Assembly: GCF_900110075.1 (NCBI RefSeq)
Contig: NZ_FOCJ01000013.1
Span: 62,001-126,000 of the forward strand
Direction of reading: 5' to 3'
From: Paenibacillus sp. OV219
GTDB taxonomy: Bacteria; Bacillota; Bacilli; Paenibacillales; Paenibacillaceae
Length of the DNA: 64,000 bases
The notes below the pieces were generated by a model. It searched no databases, had not been told where the DNA came from, and was given only the letters and a program-made list of their open reading frames with translations. Both the position numbers and the translations under genes were made by a program. Shown piece after piece: positions 19,877 to 34,695 of the stretch (the stretch's first letter is position 1; every line of letters starts with the position of its first letter).

Positions 19877-19905
19877 GCTTCGCTCTTGACGGGCGAAGTT
19901 TTTTT
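19877..19905 (+). terminator. Rho-independent terminator
   Basis: CTTCGC-TCTTGACGG-GCGAAG followed by TTTTTTT after the dehydrogenase gene. Confidence 0.8.
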
Positions 19906-19969
19906 GTCATTTACAGCTCCATGTTCTTCAATTAAGATGGATGAAATTACCACTGGAGGTGTTCGCTAT

Positions 19970-20741
19970 ATGGAAGAAATCATTGATTACTATTCTAGCT
20001 TTGACGAGTGGGGGAGGCTTGACCGGGAGCCGCTTGAGTTCAACGTGAACCTACATTACATTCAGTCGAATCTGCCTATAGCCGGACACATTCTAGATAA
20101 TGGAGCAGGTCCAGGCAAATATGCGATGGAACTGGCGAAGCTTGGCTACCAGATTACGCTTAGCGATTTGACACCAAGATTGGTGGAGGTTGCCGAGGCG
20201 AAGGCGGGGGAACTGGGGTTAATCGAACAATTTGCTAGTTTCCTCGTGCAGGATGCTAGAAACTTAAGTAAGCTTGAGAGCAATCAATTCGACGCATCGC
20301 TTATGTTAGGTGCAAGCGTTACAAGAGTTGCATCGTGTAACGAAGACGGGCGGCCTCGTATTCGTTGCCGTTCGGCCTCGGACAACTCAGCTTCTCTCGG
20401 CATTGTTGACGCCTACACAATGGAAGCCGCTCGATCAAGTCGCGGCGATACGAGACTTCATGCAGTCTGGCGTGTTTAATCATACGGATAAAGGCAGGTA
20501 CACGGGCGCTTATTTCTTCAACATCGAGGATGTAAATCCTTTCTTCGAGCAGCAAGGCTTTGAGACGATTCAATTAATCACTTCCAAAGGGATAGGAGGC
20601 CAATTAACGGAGGAGCATTGGGCATATTGGCGCGAACGCGGAGAAGAGGGCGAAATCATGGAGCTTGTCTACGAATCGGCGAAAGACCCGTACTTGCTCG
20701 GAACTGCATCGCATCTGTTGTATATTGGTCGGAAGAAGTAA
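19970..20741 (+). pseudogene. SAM-dependent methyltransferase remnant, frame disrupted
   Basis: ATG 19970 (GGAGGTG 8 bases upstream) encodes a good N-terminal half: ILDNGAGPGKYAMELA (motif I), LSDLTPRLVEVA, and up to FDASLMLG. The frame then runs into out-of-phase sequence ending at 20479, while the true continuation ALQELHRVTKTGGLVFVAVRP lies in another frame from about 20311 to the stop at 20741. Relatives have about a dozen residues (the motif IV block around LGPxYHL) at the joint, so a small out-of-frame deletion near 20308-20316 removed it. The rest is intact. A sequencing error alone would not account for the missing motif. Confidence 0.78.
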
Positions 20742-22112: not shown

Positions 22113-22131
22113 AGTGGCATGAATCTTGCTT
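22113..22131 (+). promoter_or_regulatory. Sigma-54 (-24/-12) promoter of gabT
   Basis: TGGCAT-GAATC-TTGCT: GG and GC dinucleotides are separated by exactly 10 bases as sigma-54 requires, and -12 TTGCT is a full match to TTGCW. The only mismatch in the -24 element is CAT for CAC. Lies 60 bases before gabT and could drive gabT, the aldehyde dehydrogenase and rpoN. Confidence 0.8.
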
Positions 22132-22189
22132 CAATTCTAGGCAGGTGAAGGTGAGCTAGAGACAAGATGATGTATAGAGGAGTGAGACG

Positions 22190-23551
22190 ATGGAGTCTGT
22201 GCCGAAACGCCAGTTTGTGTCGGTGTCCGTAGACTTTCCTGGACCAGCTGCGAGGAGGCTGCTGGAGTCGAGGAGACAGTTCGTACCGCAGGGGCTGTCG
22301 AACTTGGCGCCGATCTTCGTACAGAAGGCGCAGGGAGCGCTCGTTACGGATGTGGATGGCAATGTGTTTCTTGATTTTGCCGGAGCGATCGGCTCGCTCA
22401 ATGTGGGGCATTGCCCGACGGAGGTGGTCGAAGCGCTGCAGCGGCAAGCGGAGCAATACATTCATAGCTGCTTCCATGTCGCGATGTATGAGCCCTATGT
22501 GAAGCTGGCGGAGAAGCTGGCTGCAATCACGCCAGGTAGCTTCGCGAAGAAGACGATTCTACTCAATAGTGGGGCAGAGGCGGTCGAGAATGCAGTGAAG
22601 ATCGCGCGTAAGTTCACAGGCAAACCCGGAATTGTCTCGTTCTCCCGTGGCTTTCACGGCCGGACGCTGCTTGGCATGTCGCTCACGAGCAAAGTGAAGC
22701 CGTATAAGTTCCAGATGGGACCTTATGCGCCAGCTACGTATAAAGCGATGTATCCCTATCCTTTGTACCGACCGGAAGGGATGACAGAAGAGGCTTATGC
22801 GAGCTTCTGCGTGGAGCAGTTCGAGCAGTTTCTGCTCACGGAAGCGGCGCCCGAGGAGCTGGCTGCTGTTATTATGGAGCCCGTGCAAGGTGAGGGCGGG
22901 TTCATCATTCCGCCAATATCTTATGTGAAAGGGATCTTTGAGATTTGCCGAAAGAACGGTATTCTGTTTATTAGCGATGAAATCCAGACTGGATTCGGCC
23001 GGACAGGGACGATGTTCGCATCGACGCAGTTCGGTATTGAACCGGATCTGATTACGATGTCCAAGTCACTCGCAGCCGGAGTGCCGATTAGCGCTGTAAC
23101 GGGCCGAGCTGAAATCATGGATGCGCCGAGTACAGGCGAGATCGGCGGTACTTACGGGGGGAGCCCACTCGGCTGCGTCGCTGCGCTTGCAGTAATTGAA
23201 CTAATCGAGCGCGAACGATTATGCGAGAGGGCGGTGCAGATTGGAGAGCAGATTCGTAGCTTCTTCGAAACGCTGCGGCAGCAGTATCCGATTATCGCCG
23301 AGGTACGCGGACTTGGGGCGATGTGTGCGCTCGAGTTCACGGACCCAGCAACCGGTGAGCCGCTGAAGGGATTTGTCGCGAAGCTGGTGAAAGCTTGCTA
23401 TGAATCTGGCGTAATCGTACTGAGTGCGGGCATTTACGGCAATGTGCTCCGATTTCTGACACCGCTTGTGATGACTGACGAACAGCTGCATGAAGGGCTG
23501 CAAATTATAAAAGATGCCATCATATCCACTACAGCAATTGAATCGTACTAA
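22190..23551 (+). CDS. gabT: 4-aminobutyrate aminotransferase
   Basis: 453-residue class III aminotransferase. It moves the amino group of GABA (or a related omega-amino acid) to 2-oxoglutarate giving succinate semialdehyde. PLP-binding features: N-S-G-A-E-A-V-E-N-A-V-K, the FISDEIQTGFGRTG Asp, and the catalytic Lys in MSKSLAAGVP. GAGGAGTGAG precedes ATG 22190. Followed 16 bases later by the aldehyde dehydrogenase that would use its product, and preceded by a sigma-54 promoter. In context it should consume the GABA expected from the nearby lysine pathway. Confidence 0.9.
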   Translation: MESVPKRQFVSVSVDFPGPAARRLLESRRQFVPQGLSNLAPIFVQKAQGALVTDVDGNVFLDFAGAIGSLNVGHCPTEVVEALQRQAEQYIHSCFHVAMYEPYVKLAEKLAAITPGSFAKKTILLNSGAEAVENAVKIARKFTGKPGIVSFSRGFHGRTLLGMSLTSKVKPYKFQMGPYAPATYKAMYPYPLYRPEGMTEEAYASFCVEQFEQFLLTEAAPEELAAVIMEPVQGEGGFIIPPISYVKGIFEICRKNGILFISDEIQTGFGRTGTMFASTQFGIEPDLITMSKSLAAGVPISAVTGRAEIMDAPSTGEIGGTYGGSPLGCVAALAVIELIERERLCERAVQIGEQIRSFFETLRQQYPIIAEVRGLGAMCALEFTDPATGEPLKGFVAKLVKACYESGVIVLSAGIYGNVLRFLTPLVMTDEQLHEGLQIIKDAIISTTAIESY

Positions 23552-23567
23552 AGGGGGAGCAACAAAA

Positions 23568-24989
23568 ATGAAGAAACATCTATACATCGGGGGGAAATGG
23601 GTGGAGCCAGGTGCGTATGCACCACTCTATTCCCCCTATTCAGGCGTGCTGCTTGCCGATATTCCGCTCGCAACGAAAGAAGAGACCGAGCGCGCAATTG
23701 CAGCAGCCTATGAAGCGAAGGCGGTCATGGCGAGCATGCCGGCGCACAAACGCGCAGCTATTCTGGAGAAGCTCAGTCAGCTGCTCGCTGAGCGTGCGGA
23801 TGAGGCGGCCAGTCTTATATCACTTGAAGCGGCGAAGCCGATCAAAGCGGCGCGAACGGAAGTGGATCGGACGATCCAGACGTATAAGTTCGCAGCGGAG
23901 GAAGCGAAGCGGGTAACGGGTGAGATGATTCCGCTCGATGCCGCGCCTGGTGGCGAAGGCAGAATCGCGTATACGATGAGGGAGCCGCTTGGCGTCATCG
24001 GCGCGATTACGCCGTTCAACTTCCCGATGAATCTGGTCGCCCACAAGGTTGGGCCAGCGATCGCATCGGGTAATACGATCGTGCTGAAGCCGGCTTCACA
24101 GACGCCTCTGTCGGCGTATTTCCTCGCGGAGCTGCTTGAAGAGGCAGGACTTCCGGCCGGCGCGCTTAATGTGGTCACCGGCTCAGGCGCTGTGATCGGC
24201 GATGTCATCGTACAGGATGAGCGTGTAAAGGCAATCTCGTTCACAGGCAGCCCGAAGGTTGGTATCGGCATACGTAATCGGGCGGGGCTCAAGCGGGTAG
24301 CGCTTGAGCTCGGATCGAATTCGGCGCTTATCGTCGATAAAGAGGTGCCGCTTACGAAGCTCATTCCACGCTGCGTTCAGGGTGCTTTTGCCTATCAGGG
24401 TCAGGTTTGCATCTCGCTTCAGCGCATCTATGTGCACAATGAGATCTATGAGGAATTCGTAGAACAGTTCACAGCAGCTGCCGGCGGGCTCAAACTTGGT
24501 GATCCGCTTGATCCGAATACCGATCTGACATCGATGATTACGAAACAGGATACGACAAGAGCGCTAGCTTGGATTGAGGAAGCCGTTCTGGAAGGCGCAC
24601 AGCTGGCATATGGAGGAACGACCACGAATGGGATGGTGCTGCCGACGGTGTTGCTCGAAGTCGACCGTACAGCTAAAGTGTCGTGCGAAGAGGTTTTCGC
24701 GCCAATTGTAATAATTAACCGTATCCAGGATGTCGGCGAAGGGATTGCGCACATTAACGACTCGCGTTATGGGCTGCATGCAGGCATTTACACGAACAAC
24801 ATTCATACGGCTTTTGAAGCTGTGGAGAAGCTGCATGTCGGCGGTGTCCTCATCAACGACATTCCAACGTTCCGGGTTGATCATATGCCGTACGGCGGGG
24901 TGAAGGAGAGCGGCATCGGCCGTGAAGGGGTGAAGTATGCGATTGAAGAAATGACGGAGCTGAAAACCGTTATTATTAATCGGACCTAG
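23568..24989 (+). CDS. Aldehyde dehydrogenase (succinate-semialdehyde type)
   Basis: 473 residues. NAD(P)-dependent oxidation of an aldehyde to acid: the catalytic Cys is in YQGQVCISLQRIYV, the general-base Glu in VALELGSNSALIV, cofactor residues in ITPFNFPMNLVAHKVGPA and SFTGSPKVG. ATG 23568 follows AAGGGGGA. Directly downstream of gabT, so succinate semialdehyde to succinate is the likely reaction (gabD-like), although C-I-S at the active site is also seen in lactaldehyde and phosphonate-linked dehydrogenases. Specificity is an inference from context. Confidence 0.88.
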   Translation: MKKHLYIGGKWVEPGAYAPLYSPYSGVLLADIPLATKEETERAIAAAYEAKAVMASMPAHKRAAILEKLSQLLAERADEAASLISLEAAKPIKAARTEVDRTIQTYKFAAEEAKRVTGEMIPLDAAPGGEGRIAYTMREPLGVIGAITPFNFPMNLVAHKVGPAIASGNTIVLKPASQTPLSAYFLAELLEEAGLPAGALNVVTGSGAVIGDVIVQDERVKAISFTGSPKVGIGIRNRAGLKRVALELGSNSALIVDKEVPLTKLIPRCVQGAFAYQGQVCISLQRIYVHNEIYEEFVEQFTAAAGGLKLGDPLDPNTDLTSMITKQDTTRALAWIEEAVLEGAQLAYGGTTTNGMVLPTVLLEVDRTAKVSCEEVFAPIVIINRIQDVGEGIAHINDSRYGLHAGIYTNNIHTAFEAVEKLHVGGVLINDIPTFRVDHMPYGGVKESGIGREGVKYAIEEMTELKTVIINRT

Positions 24990-25046
24990 CTGTAGGCGAA
25001 TACAATATAAGGATCGAGCAAGAGCCACATGAGGCAGGTGATCTTT

Positions 25047-26366
25047 ATGCGACGTGCTTACGGCGGATTTGGGATGCTACAACAGCAGCGTACTAAGCTG
25101 CATATGACGCCACAGCTTCAGCAAGCGGTGAAGATACTGCAGATGCCAGCGCCCGAGCTACGTGCTTTCATCAATCAACAGCTGGAAGATAATCCGATGC
25201 TCGAGCAAGCAGACTGGTCGACGGACACGCGCAAAAGCACTGGTAGTTCCCGAAGCAGCAGCGACTACGATAGCTTGCAGCATGTTGCGGGACAAACGGA
25301 AACGCTTGAGCAGCATCTGCTTGAGCAGCTGAATGTCGACCTAGATGAGAAGGAAGAGATGAAGCGAATCGTCCGTTATCTGATCGGAAATTTGGATGCC
25401 AGTGGTTATTTATCCTTGGACGATCAGCAGTTAGCGGTGCAGCTTGAGGTCGATCAGGCTTTAGTGGCTCAGGCGTTTCAGATTCTGAGAAAGCTTGAGC
25501 CAGCAGGTGTGGGAGCGAGGAGCTTGTCTGAATGTTTGAAATTGCAGGCAGAACGGCTGCCCGAATGCCATCCGCTGCTCATGCAATTAATTGAGGATTT
25601 TCTCGAGGACGTGGCTGCCTCACGGATCCATAAGCTGAAGCAACGGCTGAAAGCAAGCGAGGCCGATATCACCACTGCAATTGCACAGCTCAAATCGCTG
25701 CAGCCGAGGCCTGGTGCGGCGTTTCAAGCGGGAGCACCTGGGTATGTCCTACCTGATGTAATCGTCCGTTCAGCTGGTGAAGAGGGGCAGTTTGCAGTGA
25801 TGCTGCATGATGCGGCGTTCCCGCGGCTGCATATCAACGCGGAGTACGAAAAGTTGACTCTGAATGTGAATCGAACGGAGGAAACAGGTATTTTTCTCCA
25901 TACGAGGAGGAGTGCCGCCGCTTTTCTCATTCGCTGTCTGGAGCAAAGGCGGGCGACACTTCTTCGTGTCACGCGTGCAATTGTGGAGGAGCAGGCCGCG
26001 TTCTTCCGATTCGGTCCGGCGCAGCTGAGGCCTATGACGCTGCTTGATATCGCCGATAAGCTGGGGCTGCATGAATCGACGATCAGCCGAGCAGCATCAG
26101 GAAAATTCGCACTTACAGCGTGGGGAACGTATGAGCTTGGCTTTTTCTTCCCGACAGGCTTTAATAAAGGGCTTGATGATGCCATATCGGCTGAATCGGT
26201 AAAAGCACGCTTGAAGGAGTTGATCCGTACAGAAGGTGAGTCGCCATATTCGGACCAACAGCTGGCAGATGCGTTCGCTCAGGATGGGATTCCCATCTCA
26301 CGCCGAACGGTGACGAAGTACCGGGAGTCGCTTGGCATCGCTTCTTCTATTCACCGGAAACGGTAA
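25047..26366 (+). CDS. rpoN: RNA polymerase sigma-54 factor
   Basis: About 439 residues, full length for RpoN/SigL. Region I is Gln/Leu-rich (QLQQAVKILQMPAPELRAFI), which contacts activators; the core-binding region spans about 110-300; HTH-like LHESTISRAASGKFALTAWGT recognises -12; and the RpoN box ISRRTVTKYRESLGI near the C-terminus recognises -24. ATG 25047 has AGGTGAT upstream; ATG 25029 has no good site. It lies 57 bases after the dehydrogenase gene, in the operon that starts at a sigma-54 promoter, so it may be autogenously activated. Its 3' end overlaps ablB tail-to-tail by 20 bases. Confidence 0.95.
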   Translation: MRRAYGGFGMLQQQRTKLHMTPQLQQAVKILQMPAPELRAFINQQLEDNPMLEQADWSTDTRKSTGSSRSSSDYDSLQHVAGQTETLEQHLLEQLNVDLDEKEEMKRIVRYLIGNLDASGYLSLDDQQLAVQLEVDQALVAQAFQILRKLEPAGVGARSLSECLKLQAERLPECHPLLMQLIEDFLEDVAASRIHKLKQRLKASEADITTAIAQLKSLQPRPGAAFQAGAPGYVLPDVIVRSAGEEGQFAVMLHDAAFPRLHINAEYEKLTLNVNRTEETGIFLHTRRSAAAFLIRCLEQRRATLLRVTRAIVEEQAAFFRFGPAQLRPMTLLDIADKLGLHESTISRAASGKFALTAWGTYELGFFFPTGFNKGLDDAISAESVKARLKELIRTEGESPYSDQQLADAFAQDGIPISRRTVTKYRESLGIASSIHRKR

Positions 26367-27228
26367 GCTGCTTGCACCACATATTCATATCCTCGAATTT
26401 ATCGTAAATATCGCAGTTCTTAGTCAATCTGCCGGTATACTCGTAGCCGAGCTGGAACAGAGCCGCATTCATGCCAAAAGACAGAGCGCGAGATAACGAG
26501 TAGAGAGCGAGGATGTTACGCTTACGCAAATCCTCCTCGAGCGACTGAATAAGCAGACGCATGAAGCCTTTGCCCCGATATGCGGGAAGCGTGACGCAGT
26601 CCGTAATCTCCGCATTGTGATAGACCGAATTAATCTCCGCAGACGAAGCGCTGATTAGCTTGCCATCGTCCACAACGACGAAGAACACCGTTCCCTCATC
26701 CATCACATGCCGAATGTACGCGGGGTCATTCATTGGCGTGGGGTATGTCTGAAACACTTGGCCATATAAAGCGGCGAGCTCGTCAGCATCCGTCCCAACA
26801 GCTGGTCGCAGCACGAATGACGCTGGCACCGTATCGCGCTCGAGCTTCTTCTCAAGTGCCAGCACTTGCCTTAGAATCTGATCCTCTTCCATCCAATAAT
26901 CGCTCGTTCTTCGCTCCAAGTCTGTATAACAAGCCATGCTATAAGCGTCACACCCGTGAAAATAACCCTTGAAAATCCCTTCCAGCATATATCCATGTGT
27001 TAGAAATGCCATCCAGTCATCGCTGCGCGCTTTGATGAAAATCTTCGTAAATGCTTGCTCCTGCGCTACTTCAGCGGCACGTCGGCATACCAAGTCGGCT
27101 TCGCCTGTATAGTCATCAATGCGTAGACGTTTGTTGAAGTAATCAAGAAATAATTGGAGCGACAAACCTTCATCTCCATTTTCAGTGACTACGCTGTAAT
27201 AGCGGTTCGTGTTCGGTTCTTTAGACAT
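26347..27228 (-). CDS. ablB: Beta-lysine N6-acetyltransferase
   Basis: 293-residue protein matching the AblB/YodP family: an N-terminal domain with RYYSVVTENGDEGLSLQLF and ending in a GNAT domain with VTLPAYRGKGFMRLLIQSLE (acetyl-CoA loop). AblB acetylates L-beta-lysine made by KamA. ATG 27228 is chosen because GGAGGA lies 7 bases upstream. A sigma-54 promoter precedes it on the same strand. In methanogens and some bacteria the product is an osmolyte; here the linked aminotransferase, CoA-transferase and deacylase genes point to catabolism. Confidence 0.88.
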   Translation of the reverse strand: MSKEPNTNRYYSVVTENGDEGLSLQLFLDYFNKRLRIDDYTGEADLVCRRAAEVAQEQAFTKIFIKARSDDWMAFLTHGYMLEGIFKGYFHGCDAYSMACYTDLERRTSDYWMEEDQILRQVLALEKKLERDTVPASFVLRPAVGTDADELAALYGQVFQTYPTPMNDPAYIRHVMDEGTVFFVVVDDGKLISASSAEINSVYHNAEITDCVTLPAYRGKGFMRLLIQSLEEDLRKRNILALYSLSRALSFGMNAALFQLGYEYTGRLTKNCDIYDKFEDMNMWCKQLTVSGE

Positions 27229-27267
27229 ATAATCGTCCTCCATTAAATCAGATGCAGCTTATTTCGA

Positions 27268-27284
27268 TGCAAGTTTGATACCAA
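27268..27284 (-). promoter_or_regulatory. Sigma-54 (-24/-12) promoter of ablB
   Basis: On the minus strand TTGGTAT-CAAAC-TTGCA: GG and GC are 10 bases apart, -12 TTGCA is a full match, and -24 keeps TTGG (TAT for CAC). Transcription would start near 27257, about 30 bases before ATG 27228. Confidence 0.68.
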
Positions 27285-27412
27285 CTTTGGAGATAGAGTT
27301 AGAACGCCAGCCTCCGGGAATGGATACATCATAATTTGGCAGTTTCATGCTTGCAGTGCCAAAACTTTTGCATAGGTACATCGGCTTGATTATACATGGG
27401 AGGAGGCTCTCG

Positions 27413-28750
27413 ATGAAACGGGAACATCTCATTAAACCACTGCTGAACCATCATTATCCCACGATATCATATGGCAAAGGCGTGTTCTTGTATGACGATC
27501 AAGGTAACTCCTATCTGGACGCTTCCTCAGGTGCAGTAACGGCTGGCATCGGCCACGGCGTGCAGGAAATTGCAGACGCGATGCAGGAGCAGGCGAGCAA
27601 GGTGTCGTTCGTCTACCGCTCACAGTTTACGAGTGAACCGGCGGAGGCGCTTGCGGAGCGGCTTAGTGATCTGGCACCCGGGCATGATTACTGGTCGTTC
27701 TTCGTAAACAGCGGCTCCGAGGCGACCGAAACGGCGATGAAGATTGCGATTCAGCACTGGCAGGAGAAGGGGAGGCCGAGCAAATATAAGGTGCTGTCTA
27801 GGCGAATGAGCTATCACGGCATCACGCTCGGCGCACTATCCATGTCCGGGCATTTCACGAGGCGAAGGCGATTCGTTCCGCTGCTCGAGGACTTTCCGCT
27901 CGTAGCCCCCCCTTACTGCTACCGCTGTCCGATGCAGCTCGATCCGTCCACATGCGGTCAATCCTGTGCGAATGATCTGGAGACGGTAGTCAAAAGAATC
28001 GGTTCCGAGCATATCGCAGCCTTTATCGCTGAGCCGGTCATTGGCGCTGCAGGAGGGGCGGTTGTGCCGCCGGATGGCTACTATGAGCGCATTATGGAGA
28101 TTTGCAGGCGTCATGAAATTTTATTCATCGCCGATGAAGTCATGACCGGAATCGCTCGAACCGGCATGATGTTCGGGATGGAGCACTGGGGCATTCAGCC
28201 GGATATCATTGCACTTGGCAAAGGGCTAAGCGCTGGCTATACGCCGATGGCAGCGACGCTTGCCAAGGATCATGTGCTGGAGCCGATTCTGAACGGCTCG
28301 AAGCTTGTCATGTCTGGCCACACCTACAGCGCGAATCCGCAGTCGGCTGCAGTGGCACTCGCCGTGCTCGATTATATCGAAGACCAGCAGCTTGTAGAAG
28401 CTGCACGGGAGAAAGGACAATACTTGCAAGCTGCATTGTCAAGTATGGCTGCGGTCCTCGAAATCATCGGCGATGTTCGCGGCAAAGGGCTGCTGCTCGG
28501 GCTAGAGTTCGTGGCGGATCGGCAGACGAAGGAGCCTTTTCCTTCAAGTGCAGCGCTCACGACGCGGGTGGTAGAGCGAGCATTCAACAAAGGCCTGCTG
28601 ATCTATCCTGCGGCGGGCGGCGTGGACGGCGAAGGCGATGCGATCATCATCGCGCCTCCGTTTACGATCAGCACAGAGGAGATGGATCTGCTAGTAGAGC
28701 GACTCGGCGAAGCCATCGCCGAAGTGAGTCAGGAGGTTCTCAGCGGATGA
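27413..28750 (+). CDS. yodT: Class III aminotransferase, YodT-like
   Basis: 445 residues. PLP aminotransferase of the omega-amino-acid/DAPA family: VNSGSEATETAMKIA, LFIADEVMTGIARTGMMF and the catalytic Lys in IALGKGLSAGYTPMAA. ATG 27413 has AGGAGG 6 bases upstream. A Cys-rich patch CYRCPMQLDPSTCGQSC around 185-202 is as in the YodT group. In the B. subtilis kamA-yodPQRST cluster this enzyme is proposed to transaminate N-acetyl-beta-lysine to 3-keto-6-acetamidohexanoate. First gene of a tightly packed four-gene operon; ATGA overlap with the next gene. Confidence 0.85.
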   Translation: MKREHLIKPLLNHHYPTISYGKGVFLYDDQGNSYLDASSGAVTAGIGHGVQEIADAMQEQASKVSFVYRSQFTSEPAEALAERLSDLAPGHDYWSFFVNSGSEATETAMKIAIQHWQEKGRPSKYKVLSRRMSYHGITLGALSMSGHFTRRRRFVPLLEDFPLVAPPYCYRCPMQLDPSTCGQSCANDLETVVKRIGSEHIAAFIAEPVIGAAGGAVVPPDGYYERIMEICRRHEILFIADEVMTGIARTGMMFGMEHWGIQPDIIALGKGLSAGYTPMAATLAKDHVLEPILNGSKLVMSGHTYSANPQSAAVALAVLDYIEDQQLVEAAREKGQYLQAALSSMAAVLEIIGDVRGKGLLLGLEFVADRQTKEPFPSSAALTTRVVERAFNKGLLIYPAAGGVDGEGDAIIIAPPFTISTEEMDLLVERLGEAIAEVSQEVLSG

Positions 28751-29466
28751 ATAAACAGCGATCACTTGAAGAAGCGCTGAGCTGGATAACGGACGGCTGC
28801 ACGCTCATGTATGGCGGATTTGGGGGCATCGGCACACCGCCGACGCTCATTGAAGGTATTCTCGATAAAGGGGTGAGGGACCTTACGCTCATCGGCAACG
28901 ATACGGGCTTCCCGTGGATCGGCATCGGTCGGTTAGTTACCGAAGGCCGAGTTCGTAAAGCGATCACTTCACACATAGGGTCTAATCCGAACGCAGGGCG
29001 GATGATGGAGGATGGGCGGATGGAAATTATTTTCTATCCGCAGGGGACGCTCGCCGAGAAGATTCGGGCGGGTGGCGTCGGGCTCGGCGGCATTCTCGTC
29101 GATGTCGGGATGGGCACGTCGATTGCAAATGGCAAGGAGACGGTCGTCATCGAAGGCCGAACGTACTTGGTCGAGCCAGCATTAACGGCGGACGTTGCCA
29201 TTGTGCACGCGAGTAAAGCCGATCTGTACGGCAATCTGGTCTACGACAAGAGCGGGCGAAACTTCAATCCACTCGTCGCGATGGCTGGTGAGCGGACCAT
29301 TGCCGAGGCGGATGTGATCGTGCCAATAGGCAGCCTTGATCCGGAGCTGATCATTACGCCTGGCATCTTCGTAAATGCAGTCATCACAGGCAAAGGGGTG
29401 AACTGGCAGTGGGTATGGGAGAAACGAGTCGCGACCGAATCGCAAGAAGGGCCGCCGCGGAGCTGA
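28747..29466 (+). CDS. yodS: 3-oxoacid CoA-transferase subunit A
   Basis: 239 residues of the alpha subunit family of acetoacetate/butyrate CoA-transferases: TLMYGGFGGIGTPPTLIEGIL near the start (glycine-rich G-G-F-G-x2-G) and a C-terminal VIVPIGSLDPELIITPG. It pairs with the next gene to make the heteromeric enzyme that moves CoA onto a 3-keto acid. Starts in an ATGA overlap with the aminotransferase stop and overlaps the next gene by about 50 bases, so translation is coupled. Confidence 0.88.
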   Translation: MNKQRSLEEALSWITDGCTLMYGGFGGIGTPPTLIEGILDKGVRDLTLIGNDTGFPWIGIGRLVTEGRVRKAITSHIGSNPNAGRMMEDGRMEIIFYPQGTLAEKIRAGGVGLGGILVDVGMGTSIANGKETVVIEGRTYLVEPALTADVAIVHASKADLYGNLVYDKSGRNFNPLVAMAGERTIAEADVIVPIGSLDPELIITPGIFVNAVITGKGVNWQWVWEKRVATESQEGPPRS

Positions 29467-30071
29467 AGGATGGCATGGTCGTGAACCTTGGCATAGGCAT
29501 TCCAACGCGTGTGGCTGATTTTATCGGAGAAGGCATTGAAGTGACTTTTCATGCAGAGAATGGGATTCTTGGAGCGGGACCGAGCCCTGCACAAGGCGAG
29601 GAAGACGGATTTCTGTGCAATGCCGGTGGCTATCCGGTGACGATTGTTGAAGGCGCATCGTATTGCGACAGTGCTATCGCGTTCGCTATGATTCGCAGAG
29701 GCTGCATTGATATGACTGTGCTTGGTGCGCTTGAAGTGAGCGAGCGTGGAGACCTCGCGAATTGGATTGTACCCGGCAAGCGGGCGGCGGGGATCGGAGG
29801 CGCGATGGAGCTTGCGCAGAAGGCGAAGAAAGTGGTCGCGATTATGAATCATGTGAATCGAGACGGCGCGCCTAAGATTAGGAAGCAGTGCGAGCTGCCG
29901 CTCACTGCTCCTGCGTGTGTCGATCTGATTATTACGGATATGGCGGTAATGGAGGTAACGGCTGACGGACTTCTTTTGCGAGAAATCATGTTGCCTTATA
30001 CGCTCGAAGAGGTAATCCGCTGCACAGAAGCGAGCCTTACATTGCCTGAGCAAATTCTCTATATTCCATAA
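29415..30071 (+). CDS. yodR: 3-oxoacid CoA-transferase subunit B
   Basis: 218 residues of the beta subunit. The catalytic Glu is in FHAENGILGAGPSP (the S/A-E-N-G motif that forms the glutamyl-CoA intermediate). GMVVNLGIGIPTRVADF and GGAMELAQKAKKVVAIMNH are standard blocks. Start ATG 29415 (GTG 29409 possible) lies inside the end of the A-subunit gene. In the lysine route it is expected to activate 3-keto-6-acetamidohexanoate to its CoA ester. Confidence 0.88.
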   Translation: MGETSRDRIARRAAAELKDGMVVNLGIGIPTRVADFIGEGIEVTFHAENGILGAGPSPAQGEEDGFLCNAGGYPVTIVEGASYCDSAIAFAMIRRGCIDMTVLGALEVSERGDLANWIVPGKRAAGIGGAMELAQKAKKVVAIMNHVNRDGAPKIRKQCELPLTAPACVDLIITDMAVMEVTADGLLLREIMLPYTLEEVIRCTEASLTLPEQILYIP

Positions 30072-30102
30072 GGGTTGACCGCATTGCATGGGAGGGAGCA
30101 GC

Positions 30103-31392
30103 ATGAGCTGGAAAGCACAAATACATGAATGGCTGGCGCATCACCGTGAAGATGGAACTCGCTTGCTGCAAAGCTTGGTTCGAATGCCGAGCACGCAGGG
30201 CAATGAGCAGCAGGCGCAGATGCTAATCGCCGGCAAGCTATACGATTTGAATCTTGAGGTTGAGCTGTGGGAACCGGATGGAGAATTGCTGGTGAAGCAT
30301 CCGTATTTCTATTCGCCGCGCAGCAAGTTCACCGGAAGTCCGAACGTCGTTGGGGTTCTCCGGGGAAGCGGCGGTGGGCGGTCCATTCTGCTCAATGGGC
30401 ATATGGACGTCGTGCCGGAAGGAGATGTGAAGCAGTGGACCAGTCATCCCTTCAGCGGTGAAGTGACGGATGGCAAGCTGTATGGTCGTGGCGCTTCGGA
30501 TATGAAGGGAGGGAATGTCGCGCTGCTGCTCGCGATTCAAGCGATTCGTGAGCTAGGCATTCAGCTGAAGGGCGACGTCATATTCCAAAGTGTTGTCGAA
30601 GAGGAGAGTGGAGGCGCCGGGACGCTCGCTGCTATCTTGAAGGGATATAAGGCTGATGCGGCGCTTATTCCCGAGCCGACGAATATGCGGATATTCCCGA
30701 AACAGCAAGGTTCGATGTGGTTTCGGATTCATGTGAAGGGCCGCTCCGCGCATGGCGGAACGCGGTATGAAGGTGTCAGCGCGATCGAGAAATGTATGAT
30801 TGTCGTGTCGGAGCTGCTTGAGCTTGAACGCGTACGGAACGCGCGAATTAATGATCCGCTGTTTGCGAACAATCCGATACCGATACCGATTAATATCGGG
30901 ACGATCAACGGAGGCAACTGGCCGTCCTCCGTGCCAGATATCGTGACGATTGAAGGGCGGATCGGCGTCGCGCCAGAGGAAAGCATGGACGAAGTGAAAG
31001 CGGAGCTCGCTGCGTGGATGGATCGGCTGCAGGCGCAGGATGAGTGGTTCGCGGTTTCACCGCCGCGGCTCGAATGGTTCGGCGCTCGCTGGGTGCCGGG
31101 CAGCGTCGATATCGGTCACGAGCTGATAGGAGTTCTGTCAGAGCAATTTGAAAGTGTGCTCGGGAGCAAGCCGGCAATTGAGGCATCCCCGTGGGGAACG
31201 GACGGCGGCCTTCTGACCGTCGTCGGCGATACACCATGCATCGTGTTCGGTCCGGGCTTAACGCATACTGCTCATTATCCGAATGAGCATATTGTGCTCG
31301 AAGACATGTTCCGCACAGCCGAAATTATTGCGCTCACCATGCTCGCTTGGTGCGGAATAGAAGCAGAAGAAAGCCTTGCCGGCTCCTCGTAA
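30103..31392 (+). CDS. yodQ: M20 family deacylase, YodQ-like
   Basis: 429 residues of the ArgE/DapE/ACY1 (M20) zinc hydrolase family: ILLNGHMDVVPEGD (metal His and Asp), GRGASDMKGG (bridging Asp), SVVEEESGGAG (catalytic Glu-Glu), a dimerisation lid, and the late His in TAHYPNEHI. ATG 30103 follows GGAGGGAG. Known members hydrolyse N-acetyl bonds; in this cluster the likely substrate is 4-acetamidobutyrate, giving GABA and acetate (inference). Its 3' end forms one arm of a terminator. Confidence 0.87.
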   Translation: MSWKAQIHEWLAHHREDGTRLLQSLVRMPSTQGNEQQAQMLIAGKLYDLNLEVELWEPDGELLVKHPYFYSPRSKFTGSPNVVGVLRGSGGGRSILLNGHMDVVPEGDVKQWTSHPFSGEVTDGKLYGRGASDMKGGNVALLLAIQAIRELGIQLKGDVIFQSVVEEESGGAGTLAAILKGYKADAALIPEPTNMRIFPKQQGSMWFRIHVKGRSAHGGTRYEGVSAIEKCMIVVSELLELERVRNARINDPLFANNPIPIPINIGTINGGNWPSSVPDIVTIEGRIGVAPEESMDEVKAELAAWMDRLQAQDEWFAVSPPRLEWFGARWVPGSVDIGHELIGVLSEQFESVLGSKPAIEASPWGTDGGLLTVVGDTPCIVFGPGLTHTAHYPNEHIVLEDMFRTAEIIALTMLAWCGIEAEESLAGSS

Positions 31393-31418
31393 CTGGAGCG
31401 GCAAGGCTTTCTTCTTGT
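31370..31418. terminator. Bidirectional terminator between yodQ and kamA
   Basis: AAAGCCTTGCCG-GCTCC-TCGTAACT-GGAGC-GGCAAGGCTTT is a near-perfect 16-bp stem with T-rich flanks on both sides. Its left arm lies within the last codons of the M20 gene. Confidence 0.85.
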
Positions 31419-32924
31419 TTATTCTGTCGTCGAACCGTCATTGTTGCCGCTAGTTTCTCCTTCTGCCGGAGGTGTCGGTGCAGCCGCCTGCTGCGGTGCG
31501 GGAACAACCGTCGCTTTTTCCCCATCGCCTTGCCGAGCCTTCATAAGCTTCTGCTTCATCTCGTCGCGTTTCTCGCGTTTGTCCTTGAGCGAGTGGTGGT
31601 CCGGCGTCTGCTGATAGAGCTTCCGCCTGCCGATCCGCCGCAAATTTTCTGGCACCAGGTTGAAATTCTCATCCTTAATGAGCGAGATAATGCCGGTGCT
31701 CTCCGGCTGCTTGTCGATCTTATAGATTTCATTGAAATACTCGTCAGCACGGCCGGAGACGTAGTTCTTCGGCTCTGGATAGCCGACGATAACCCCTTCG
31801 TAGTTGCGCAAGATGACCTTATCTTGGCTTTGCGAGATGAGGTAGTTCGGCTGCAGCGCGATTTTCCCGCCACCGCCAGGAGCGTCGACAACGAAGGTAG
31901 GCACCGCATATCCGCTCGTATGCCCGCGAAGCGCTTCGATAATTTCAAGCCCCTTCGAAACTGGAGCCCGGAAATGGCCGATGCCTTCGGACAAATCGCA
32001 CTGGTAGATGTAATACGGGCGGACGCGGATTTTGACGAGATCATGCATCAGCTTCTTCATGATGTGCGTGCTATCGTTGATGCCCGCTAATATAACTGCT
32101 TGGTTGCCGAGCGGCACGCCGGCGTCTGCTAGCATCTCGCACGCTTTCTTCGCCTCGTCCGTCATCTCGAGCGGGTGATTGAAATGCGTATTGAGCCATA
32201 TCGGATGGTATTTGCGCAGCATCTTGCACAGATTCTCGGTAATCCGCTGAGGGAACACGACTGGCGCGCGCGTGCCGATCCGAATAATCTCGACATGCGG
32301 GATCTCCCGCAAATTCTTCAGAATATATTCAAGAATCGTATCGTTTATTAGCAGCCCGTCGCCGCCCGAGAGCAGCACATCGCGCACTTCCGGCGTGTTG
32401 CGGATATAGGCGATTGCATCGTCCATCTGCTTCTTCGGTACGCCCATGCCGACTTGGCCGGAGAAGCGTCTGCGCGTGCAGTACCGGCAGTACATGGAGC
32501 ATTGGTTCGTCACGAGGAACAGCACACGGTCTGGGTAGCGATGCGTAAGTCCGGGAGTCGGTGAATCTTCATCCTCGTACAGCGGATCTTCCAAGTCATA
32601 TTTGGTCTTGAGCAGCTCAGCCGAGATCGGAACCGATTGCAGCCTGATCGGGCACCTTGGGTCGTCAGGATGCATAAGGGAAGCGTAGTAAGGCGTAATG
32701 TTGAGCGGGATCGTCTGTGTCGAGATCTGCACACCTACTTCTTCATCCGGTGTCAGATTGACAACCTGCTTCAATTCATCGAGCGTCTTAATCGTGTGCG
32801 TGAGCTGCCACAGCCAATCGTTCCACTGTTCATCCGTGACATCCTTCCAGAGCGGAACCTCTTTCCAATGCCGGTTGCTGCTAAGAGGCACCTTGTCCTT
32901 TCCGCCATTGCTAGCCATATTCAT
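31419..32924 (-). CDS. kamA: Lysine 2,3-aminomutase
   Basis: 501 residues. Radical-SAM, PLP-dependent enzyme converting L-lysine to L-beta-lysine. The Fe-S/SAM motif is CSMYCRYC (C-x3-C-x2-C) in VTNQCSMYCRYCTRRRF, preceded by the L-T-H-R-Y-P-D-R segment; PLP Lys is in VVDAPGGGGKIALQPNY. The last 50 residues form an Ala/Pro/Gly/Glu-rich tail not needed by shorter homologues. ATG 32924 follows GGAGGTG (9-base gap), so the frame's earlier ATG at 32942 carries the ribosome site itself. A near-perfect sigma-54 promoter lies 45 bases upstream. Confidence 0.95.
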   Translation of the reverse strand: MNMASNGGKDKVPLSSNRHWKEVPLWKDVTDEQWNDWLWQLTHTIKTLDELKQVVNLTPDEEVGVQISTQTIPLNITPYYASLMHPDDPRCPIRLQSVPISAELLKTKYDLEDPLYEDEDSPTPGLTHRYPDRVLFLVTNQCSMYCRYCTRRRFSGQVGMGVPKKQMDDAIAYIRNTPEVRDVLLSGGDGLLINDTILEYILKNLREIPHVEIIRIGTRAPVVFPQRITENLCKMLRKYHPIWLNTHFNHPLEMTDEAKKACEMLADAGVPLGNQAVILAGINDSTHIMKKLMHDLVKIRVRPYYIYQCDLSEGIGHFRAPVSKGLEIIEALRGHTSGYAVPTFVVDAPGGGGKIALQPNYLISQSQDKVILRNYEGVIVGYPEPKNYVSGRADEYFNEIYKIDKQPESTGIISLIKDENFNLVPENLRRIGRRKLYQQTPDHHSLKDKREKRDEMKQKLMKARQGDGEKATVVPAPQQAAAPTPPAEGETSGNNDGSTTE

Positions 32925-32968
32925 CTGCTCTCGCACCTCCATGAGATTACCTATCTACTTCAATAAAG

Positions 32969-32986
32969 AAGCAAGGAGTGTGCCAA
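32969..32986 (-). promoter_or_regulatory. Sigma-54 (-24/-12) promoter of kamA
   Basis: On the minus strand TTGGCAC-ACTCC-TTGCTT. Both elements match the consensus TTGGCAC-N5-TTGCW completely with the required 10 bases between GG and GC. The best sigma-54 promoter in the window. Confidence 0.92.
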
Positions 32987-32999
32987 CAGCGCTGCATTA

Positions 33000-33028
33000 A
33001 TAAAAAAAGAGCTCCAGCGAGGGAGCCC
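33000..33028 (-). terminator. Terminator of the sigma-54 activator gene
   Basis: On the minus strand GCTCC-CTCGCT-GGAGC-TCTTTTTTT, between the regulator stop (33105) and the kamA promoter. Separates their transcription. Confidence 0.75.
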
Positions 33029-33104
33029 ATTTTACACGTATCTCTCATTCAGTTTATCATTCAGTTTATCTTTCGGTTTCTCATTCAGCAGCACATTTGG
33101 TTGC

Positions 33105-34538
33105 TCATTCGGCTGTCTGCTTCGAAATGCCATACCGCTTCAGCTTGTATTGCAGCGCTTGCCGTTTGATGCCGAGCTCTTGCGCCGTTAGGCTAATGTT
33201 GAACGCATTCCGCTGCAGCGCTTCTTGTATCGCTTCACGCTCCATCTGCTTGATGCGATTGGTCAGCTTCTCATCCTCCGGTGCTTGCGAGGTAGGCAGC
33301 GATCTGCTCCGATCTTGCCGTTCTCCCAACAGATTGGCAGGAAGATGATGCTCGTCAATCAGCGTATCGTCGATCTCGACCATGTTGAACGCCGACTCAA
33401 TCGCATGGCTGAGCTCCCGTACATTGCCTGGCCACGAATAAGAGGTCAGCCGAGTGAGCGCAGCAGGTGCAATGCCGGTCAATTGCATCCCGAACACGCC
33501 ATTCATTTGCTCAATGAAATGATCGACAAGCAGCGGAATATCCTCTATTCGATCTTTGAGCAGCGGCAGCTCCAGCTTCACAACACTAAGCCGAAAATAA
33601 AGATCACCTCGCAAACGCCCCTCATCGAGCGCTCTCATCGGGTCCATATTCATCGCGGTAATGACTCGCACATCCGCTTGCATCTCGGTCGTCCCACCGA
33701 TCCGGCGCACCATGCCGTCCTGCAGCACGCGAAGCAGCTTCGCTTGCAAGTAAATATCAAGGCTATTCAGTTCGTCGAGAAACAGTGTTCCGCCGCTCGC
33801 TTGCTCGAACAAACCTGCCCGATCGACTGCGCCGGTGAATGCGCCGCGCGTCGTGCCGAACATGATTCCTTCCAGCAGGTCTGCCGGTACAGCCGCACAG
33901 TTCTGCGCGATGAAAGGGCGGCTGCGGCGGACGCCTGCATTATGAATGCTTTGGGCGAACAGTTCTTTGCCAGTGCCGGTAGCACCGTAGATGAGTACAG
34001 GAGAATTGGTGCGCGACGTCTTTTTCGCCAGCTGCAGCACGTCCTGAAATGGCTTGCTCTGCCCAATGAGATCGCTGAACTCATAGCGTGCAGAGGCTTT
34101 ACTCTTCGGATCCTTCTGCTTCGGCTGGTACAGCTGCTGCCTGAGATCCAGAATCTGATCATGCAGATGGACGATGCTCGTAATATCCTTCGCCACTTCA
34201 AGCGCACCGACGAGCCGGTTATTGTCATAGAGCGGATACGTGCTGTTGATCGTCATGATTCGCTTGCCATCGACGTTGAAATAGGTCTGAATTCGTGCAG
34301 GGAGCTGCTGCCCAGTCTGCAACACCTTCTCCAGCGTACTCGTCTCGATTGTGAGGGAGGGATAGAGATGCAAAATATTTTGCCCCAGCACCTGCTCACG
34401 GTTCAGCCCATCGATCTCCGCCATTTTGTCATTATAGAACACGGTATTACCCTCACGGTCGATGAAATGCACGCCGACGTCGATTGTATTAAGTAGCTTC
34501 TCAAAATAATTCGAAACGGAATCATTTCGCCCTAGCAC
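33105..34538 (-). CDS. Sigma-54-dependent activator (PAS, AAA+, Fis HTH)
   Basis: About 477 residues from GTG 34538 (GGAGGG 10 bases upstream); the frame is open to GTG 34649 without a ribosome site. Order: PAS sensor ([22 protein letters not shown], residues 10-120), AAA+ domain with Walker A GATGTGKE, the sigma-54-contacting GAFTGA loop, Walker [13 protein letters not shown], and a Fis-type helix-turn-helix [20 protein letters not shown]. No response-regulator domain, so PAS probably senses a metabolite, as in RocR/KamR-like activators. Placed just upstream of kamA; the likely activator of the three -24/-12 promoters here. Confidence 0.92.
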
Positions 34539-34695
34539 CGCCGCACTTCCCTCCGCCTGGACGAAGCATGGAACTGACAACTGTTCCGATACGTCCTTAT
34601 GAGAAACGGTATGCAAAATATTCGGGCGCAATGCGCGAAATAAACTCACCAGGGCGATAACCTAGCATACTGTGTATGAAGGTGGTGATTACGAA

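Follow-up and report, generated by a model that had tools for sequence, protein, structure and literature searches.

An rpoN gene within a lysine-breakdown locus of Paenibacillus sp. OV219 and the case for a putative one-activator sigma-54 module

Sigma-54, the product of rpoN, is usually read as a broad factor used by many activators. This study concerns a lysine-breakdown locus of Paenibacillus sp. OV219 in which rpoN lies among the catabolic genes. The stretch analysed, called the window, is 64,000 nucleotides long (positions 62,001-126,000 of NZ_FOCJ01000013.1; host genome 6.10 Mb, 38 contigs), and the locus occupies positions 22115-34649 of it, with ten genes and three exact -24/-12 sites. 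The kamA-yodPQRST genes of Bacillus subtilis, which gives a kamA match in our control rows, presumably encode the same enzyme set; to our knowledge, no rpoN, activator or gab genes are attached to them. In Bacillus thuringiensis HD73, kamA is under the control of sigma-54 and KamR in vivo (PMC4428206), and gabT of B. thuringiensis is under sigma-54 and GabR in vivo (PMC4279683). Among Bacilli, the COGs of lysine 2,3-aminomutase and 4-aminobutyrate transaminase were found to be enriched among sigma-54 targets, in a paper whose main text makes no mention of Paenibacillus (PMC12316311). Genes for sigma-54 within a locus that they serve have been described in Rhodobacter capsulatus, with the auto-activated nifU2-rpoN (PMC6925177), and in Mesorhizobium loti and Rhizobium etli, with prxS-rpoN2 (PMC3538637).

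Like the kam locus of B. thuringiensis HD73, the Paenibacillus island has a -24/-12 promoter at kamA and a PAS-type activator gene beside kamA in the same direction. In B. thuringiensis, however, gab and kam lie apart, each with an activator of its own (GabR and KamR), and no rpoN was seen in any fetched stretch of Bacillus-type kam loci. As in the B. thuringiensis gab cluster, gabT stands under a -24/-12 promoter; unlike there, the island has no dedicated activator near gabT, the only strong enhancer-binding proteins (EBPs) being KamR and a distant RocR-like protein, and rpoN is the third gene of the putative gabT operon. The arrangement of nifU2-rpoN and prxS-rpoN2, in which rpoN follows a client gene whose promoter needs that sigma factor and its cognate activator, has its counterpart in an rpoN close downstream of a gene with a -24/-12 promoter. 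Those systems belong to nitrogen fixation in Alphaproteobacteria and have demonstrated extra rpoN promoters or copies, whereas the island concerns amino-acid catabolism in a Gram-positive bacterium and its embedded rpoN is the only one. An earlier sequence-only reading of this DNA had supposed that joining a pathway and its sigma factor in one locus was not described, which was too strong in view of these precedents (PMC4428206, PMC4279683, PMC6925177, PMC3538637); prior art is stronger than it assumed. No publication joining rpoN with kam, gab or roc loci was found in the open-access literature, which was incompletely covered and gives a weak negative, and the union of kam, gab and rpoN in one locus is apparently unreported.

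Judged from sequence, the locus is likely to be a one-activator sigma-54 module for lysine catabolism. This reading draws on its gene content, its promoter sites, the sole rpoN, the operon-like layout and the conserved linkage. Gene calls were made from profile matches judged against curated NCBIfam cut-offs, and all ten genes named in the sequence-only reading were found in place; eight exceed those cut-offs (GabT, RpoN, AblB, the YodT-like aminotransferase, both CoA-transferase subunits, the M20 deacylase and KamA). The plus-strand group begins with gabT, encoding 4-aminobutyrate transaminase (22190..23551; TIGR00700, 583 bits, cut-off 507), followed by an aldehyde dehydrogenase (ALDH) gene (23562..24989, mechanical open reading frame (ORF) from 23514; PF00171) and, 39 nt further on, rpoN (25029..26366; TIGR02395, over cut-off). 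RpoN has all three domains, AID, CBD and DBD (PF00309, PF04963, PF04552), and the RpoN box SRRTVTKYRE. The ALDH is presumed to be a succinate-semialdehyde dehydrogenase; it scores 354 bits against that model (TIGR01780, cut-off 646) and reaches no displayed curated cut-off, so that it is assignable to its family only and the label gabD would rest on gene context. On the minus strand follows ablB, for beta-lysine N-acetyltransferase (26347..27243; TIGR03827, 296 bits, cut-off 205). The next plus-strand group consists of a YodT-like class-III aminotransferase gene, called kamB here (27413..28750, mechanical ORF from 27347; PRK06917, 738 bits, cut-off 535), the genes for CoA-transferase subunits A (28747..29466; TIGR02429, over cut-off) and B (29409..30071; TIGR02428, over cut-off), and a YodQ-like M20 deacylase gene (30088..31392; PRK06915, 691 bits, cut-off 428). 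The island ends on the minus strand with kamA, for lysine 2,3-aminomutase (31419..32942; TIGR03820, 640 bits, cut-off 525), and kamR (33105..34649), whose product has PAS, Sigma54_activat (AAA+) and HTH_8 domains with an intact GAFTGA.

The three promoters proposed earlier at 22113, 27268 and 32969 correspond to exact -24/-12 sites. One precedes gabT-ALDH-rpoN on the plus strand (TGGCATGAATCTTGCT, 22115..22130, 60 nt to the start codon); the other two lie on the minus strand before ablB (TGGTATCAAACTTGCA, 27268..27283, 25 nt) and kamA (TGGCACACTCCTTGCT, 32970..32985, 28 nt). The strict search pattern, TGGYAYNNNNNTTGCW, was controlled with the same pattern backward, and the whole genome gave 33 matches against 25 for the control. 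Three of the 33 fall inside the 12.4-kb island (binomial P ~4e-5). Mechanical ORFs of at least 100 amino acids enclose 27 of the 30 others, and none of the remaining three is within 150 nt before a same-strand ORF of at least 100 amino acids. A same-strand ORF starts at most 150 nt downstream of two of the 30, both of which are themselves inside ORFs. For four of the 27, the earliest start that a same-strand ORF could use is less than 200 nt away; inspected by eye, these four sit within coding sequence or else next to, or antisense to, longer genes. The 30 matches outside the island thus look like chance, and the canonical sigma-54 regulon of the host appears to be this island.

The 6.1-Mb genome holds a single copy of rpoN. 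Of the five PF00158 matches in the genome, two are strong, at 203 and 193 bits; the other three score only 26-43 bits, though above the Pfam cut-off, and no GAFTGA-like motif occurs in their longest frames. The two strong proteins are KamR and the distant RocR-like PAS-AAA+-HTH_8 protein, which carries GAFTGS and whose gene adjoins genes of the arginase, class-III aminotransferase, proline dehydrogenase, aldehyde dehydrogenase and glutamate dehydrogenase families. Three same-genus genomes that have no rpoN carry orthologues of it (59-67% identical) next to put/roc genes; of five put/roc reference genes, G109 has all five near the orthologue, G062 four and G018 three. Since orthologues of the RocR-like protein persist in members of the genus that lack rpoN, the host probably has KamR as its only sigma-54 activator.

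In the proposed mechanism, the PAS domain of KamR would sense a pathway metabolite, and KamR would remodel RNA polymerase carrying sigma-54 made from the island's own gene; it would do so at the -24/-12 promoter of kamA and, presumably, at those of ablB and gabT-ALDH-rpoN. Activation would also raise sigma-54, since the gabT operon ends with rpoN, and the resulting positive feedback could turn on the whole pathway as a unit. KamA would convert lysine to beta-lysine and AblB would acetylate it to N6-acetyl-beta-lysine, from which the YodT-like aminotransferase would give a 3-keto acid and the CoA-transferase its CoA ester. A thiolase encoded outside the island, followed by M20 deacetylation, would yield GABA (4-aminobutyrate), which GabT and the ALDH would convert to succinate; both the direction of flux and the order of the CoA steps are presumptive. 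With aminomutase, acetyltransferase, transaminase, CoA-transferase and deacylase in the block, the acetylated beta-lysine route is, as far as gene assignments go, complete there except for CoA ester cleavage. No thiolase gene was found in the block, and two strong matches lie on other contigs (C15:76104, C20:381092); no transporter is among the ten island genes. The island had been called self-contained, which is wrong since thiolases are encoded elsewhere. What stood of that claim was the gene set leading from lysine through beta-lysine, acetylated intermediates and GABA to succinate, with rpoN in the locus and control of KamR/sigma-54 type. The observation is confirmed in this sense, and its first interpretation is partly supported.

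The linkage of rpoN and kam was followed in a family sample (147 genomes, drawn evenly from a larger group) and a class sample (348 genomes), taken to be Paenibacillaceae and Bacilli. In the family, strong rpoN genes occur at 47 places in 45 genomes, a count that leaves out weak PF04552 matches (<=24.4 bits) in G047, G049, G060, G129, G138 and G145 and weak second matches in G023 and G008; kamA exceeds its cut-off in 14. All 14 kamA-bearing genomes have rpoN (Fisher P 1.3e-8, without kinship correction), within about 10 kb of kamA in 12 of them. In the class, kamA is present in 126 genomes and rpoN in 238. Of the 124 kamA genomes outside the family, five have no rpoN match, 14 have an rpoN whose place is not listed and 105 are comparable; none of these 105 shows the link. 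In 42 of them the two genes share a contig and are never closer than 174 kb; in the other 63 they are on different contigs, a weaker form of evidence. An AblB alignment scan of named genomes was read for the best 80 of 337 relatives, and rpoN adjoins ablB in 37 of these loci, all in Paenibacillus or Cohnella. An rpoN of a kam locus is called type A below.

An exact site precedes kamA in 11 of 12 family loci and at 22/22 kamA starts of further named type-A loci, and one before gabT recurs in L058, L053, L018, L037 and L046; the backward pattern gave no match in the family, named or rpoN-less class of loci. In the 43 named loci without intact rpoN (including L151, where rpoN is in pieces), a KamR-like ORF is kept in 38, as counted from maps, and an exact site lies at 36 of 41 kamA starts, so that sigma-54 control of kamA is probably older than the arrival of rpoN in the locus. 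No rpoN was seen in the fetched stretches of Aneurinibacillus or of the P. elgii/P. tyrfis/P. ehimensis loci, and each of nine checked genomes with an rpoN-less locus has one rpoN elsewhere. Eleven checked genomes with a kam-rpoN locus have one (six genomes), two (three) or three (two) rpoN genes. The named members of the genus are Paenibacillus taihuensis (G001), P. montanisoli (G041), P. sp. CF384 (G030) and P. lignilyticus (G467), the last with the gene order of the window. The order gabT-ALDH-rpoN is found in 6/6 type-A loci of the genus; gabT-ALDH follows the M20 gene in g5 and g15, as in many named loci, and the gab genes are absent from the g12 stretch. If the three closest loci are set aside, identity to the window's own proteins is 39-52% for RpoN and 83-91% for KamA.

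Several other arrangements were observed in these genomes. Paenibacillus sp. P25 has two kam loci (L151 and L138), with rpoN beside each in short or split frames that may reflect decay or sequencing error, and a third, longer rpoN frame elsewhere. In L061 (G023:C1:262000-281999), kamA is the only kam gene of the stretch, kamR and ablB being absent, and has very large ORFs (770, 1931 and 1330 amino acids) as neighbours; the locus is possibly a biosynthetic cluster using beta-lysine. In G044 (L014, L015), RpoN groups with type A but has no linkage to kam; kamR and kamA form a pair there with none of the remaining kam genes in the stretch, possibly a decayed module. The neighbouring M3-family peptidase gene (family by eye), which lies about 11 kb from kamR in G001, where the island is present, served as marker in an empty-site test. 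In eight genus members without kam genes upstream of the peptidase (five shown to be rpoN-less; G464, G465 and G468 outside the rpoN test), its upstream neighbours vary from genome to genome and no clean empty site was seen.

The feedback of the proposed module has support in close relatives and in L028. The gap between ALDH and rpoN measures 24-53 nt in all six type-A loci sampled from the genus, every one of which has a site before gabT, and L028, from which the gab genes are absent, has an exact site 48 nt before rpoN. Against the module, such sites are rare elsewhere: just before rpoN the strict site occurs in 1/12 family and 0/29 further named type-A loci, and at the gabT start in 1/19 of the latter. 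Self-amplification is therefore supported for the clade of the window and L028, not for the whole type-A lineage; the feedback layout is a feature of these and, in another form, of the type-B loci described below. Also against the module, two family genomes, G023 and G044, break the linkage, and in 3 of the 63 different-contig genomes both genes are near a contig start (only contig starts were considered). To look for a KamR motif, the 220 nt preceding each of 79 type-A sites (some genomes being in twice) were scanned for gapped palindromes and 8-mers; the words returned were mostly kamR coding sequence, terminators and promoter pieces, and no shared motif was found.

The main catabolic operon of the island, that of kamB, has no -24/-12 site within one mismatch and is not covered by the three promoters. 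The kamB operon might instead be driven by a housekeeping or sporulation sigma factor, with sigma-54 controlling only entry (kamA, ablB) and exit (gab), a possibility that we consider unlikely. A canonical site is likewise missing before kamB in L058 and L053, and exact kamB sites are found at only 4/30 starts in further named type-A loci and 0/35 in rpoN-less loci, where mechanical starts may be wrong. In B. thuringiensis, moreover, kamA is also driven by sigma-K late in sporulation (PMC4428206). In the family, an exact kamB site is present in 6/12 type-A loci. Against such divided control, exact divergent pairs lie between kamB and ablB in L018, L037 and L046, and the clade of the window has, by eye, a TGGCA..TTGCA element of other spacing where the site is expected: window, L058 and L053 share TGGCAG..GCTTGCAGTGCC, which in the window appears as TTTGGCA-N15-TGCCAAA (27335..27363, plus strand).

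It is improbable, to a somewhat greater degree, that rpoN is an ordinary genome-wide SigL moved next to kam and also serving, for example, roc/put through the RocR-like regulator from degenerate promoters. Firmicute sigma-54 does serve many operons in B. thuringiensis (PMC4428206), a second strong EBP is present in the host, and real sites can deviate from the strict pattern, which would miss degenerate promoters. The A6-to-S change of GAFTGS is listed in active E. coli PrpR (PMC3162934); the motif is not disabling by itself, and the argument for a sole activator therefore rests on the orthologues in rpoN-less genomes. These orthologues are kept beside put/roc without any rpoN, two of the three being further altered (GTFSGS, GTFSGQ), the roc locus of the host has no intergenic -24/-12 site within one mismatch, and in G012, G028 and G089, which have type-A RpoN, KamR is the only EBP match at E <= 1e-25. 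Less probable still is a solute reading, in which KamA and AblB matter as producers of N-epsilon-acetyl-beta-lysine, the other genes recycle it and sigma-54 is an osmotic or starvation switch. The abl genes of methanogens and over-expressed yodP-kamA of B. subtilis reportedly have such a solute role, kamA and ablB each have their own -24/-12 site, and L128, L134 and L135 hold kamR, kamA and ablB without other kam enzymes in the fetched stretch. However, transaminase, CoA-transferases and deacylase, mostly also with GabT and ALDH, form a degradative set that is kept with rpoN across genera.

The embedding of rpoN in a catabolic locus extends beyond kam. In type B, comprising 24 of the 47 family rpoN genes (L017, L020, L022, L023, L025-L027, L029, L033-L035, L038-L042, L044, L045, L047-L049, L051, L054, L055), rpoN lies 39-199 nt directly behind a same-strand RocA-type dehydrogenase gene. 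All 24 stretches contain a proline dehydrogenase gene and 23 a RocR-type activator with GAFSGA, the other, L048, ending near a contig end; each of the 12 type-B loci displayed has an exact -24/-12 site close to where rocA and/or putA starts. Counting EBPs of at least 140 bits, a strong EBP gene is found within 12 kb of 43 of the 47 rpoN genes, and exactly one EBP is present in 31 of the 45 rpoN-bearing genomes. As a control, 20 rpoN neighbourhoods from other families of the class were read, instead of a class-wide activator count, and an EBP-like ORF was seen in two. The glycolytic/CggR neighbourhood is a conserved association of sigma-54 in Firmicutes (PMC3162934). Control stretch L225 has a CggR-type gene beside genes for glyceraldehyde-3-phosphate dehydrogenase, phosphoglycerate kinase and enolase (gene families checked), and relatives of these three genes occur in 19/20 control stretches versus 0/48 family loci.

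In the RpoN trees, type B forms one side of a branch (support 98/93, and 100/99 in a second tree with 11 of 15 g6 type-B rows left out and only eight named type-A rows added). All 20 type-A rows group together, L014 being the sole other row among them (97/99), and a single clade for them is compatible with the data (approximately unbiased test, p 0.49). Genomes with several rpoN genes hold copies from different lineages. A copy of Cohnella pontilimi pairs with one of P. alginolyticus (L030, L227), GabT- and ALDH-like genes being present in both stretches, and one of P. silvestris pairs with one of G037 (L231, L032). A simple story of lineages following loci is complicated by scattered groups C and Y, weakly supported deep branches, several long rows and two control rows of one family inside the family side. 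The two main RpoN lineages nevertheless appear, from these trees, to follow their client loci across several genera. Cereibacter (Rhodobacter) sphaeroides has four specialised rpoN genes, the studied paralogues each with a particular activator (PMC11999139), but within one species.

These patterns suggest that sigma-54, usually seen as a cell-wide regulator, became a private switch for single pathways. In the broadest form of this proposal, on which we are evenly divided, sigma-54 of Paenibacillaceae would no longer occupy its usual Firmicute neighbourhood of glycolytic genes but would have split into several private sigma factors. Every one of them would lie within a single catabolic locus (kam, roc/put, gab or others), be paired with an activator of its own and, in some cases, amplify itself. 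Its inheritance would follow the pathway and not the genome, and a cell could then hold several, possibly non-interchangeable, sigma-54s. The value of the present case lies in family-wide locus-embedded sigma-54 genes together with a genome whose sigma-54 regulon seems to be one island. If true, one sigma-54, one activator and one pathway in a genome would make a minimal natural sigma-54 system, in which one could study sigma-factor specialisation, the reasons for the fast evolution of RpoN there and the possible insulation of paralogous sigma-54s from one another. Such a case would also caution against presuming a broad RpoN regulon in Gram-positive bacteria.

Apart from these loci, 33 of the 147 family genomes have an EBP-type protein (E <= 1e-25) and no strong rpoN, contrary to the near-perfect pairing of EBPs and rpoN given in PMC3162934. 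The EBPs read in three rpoN-less genomes carry GAFTGS, GTFSGS or GTFSGQ, and EBPs of this kind may work with the housekeeping sigma factor.

Some further features of the window were recorded. The island has a higher GC content (0.541) than the window (0.497), the right flank (0.501) or the left flank (0.453). Between kamR and the kamA promoter, a terminator-like hairpin with a T run lies on the minus strand (32999..33028; one found against 0.4 expected in shuffles), with the kamA -24/-12 site directly after it; hairpins of relatives were judged by eye. About four imperfect 12-nt tandem repeats (33040-33100, by eye) stand between kamR and this terminator, and as a conserved activator site they were rejected, none being seen by eye in the close relative L058. 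At window positions 19886-20741, a gene for an S-adenosylmethionine-dependent methyltransferase seems, by eye, to be split into two overlapping ORFs that are in different frames. The convergent genes rpoN and ablB share 20 nt at their 3' ends (26347-26366); an overlap of 6-36 nt recurs in L058, L031 and L013, with a 7-nt gap instead in L018, and antisense coupling of the two genes through this overlap is possible.

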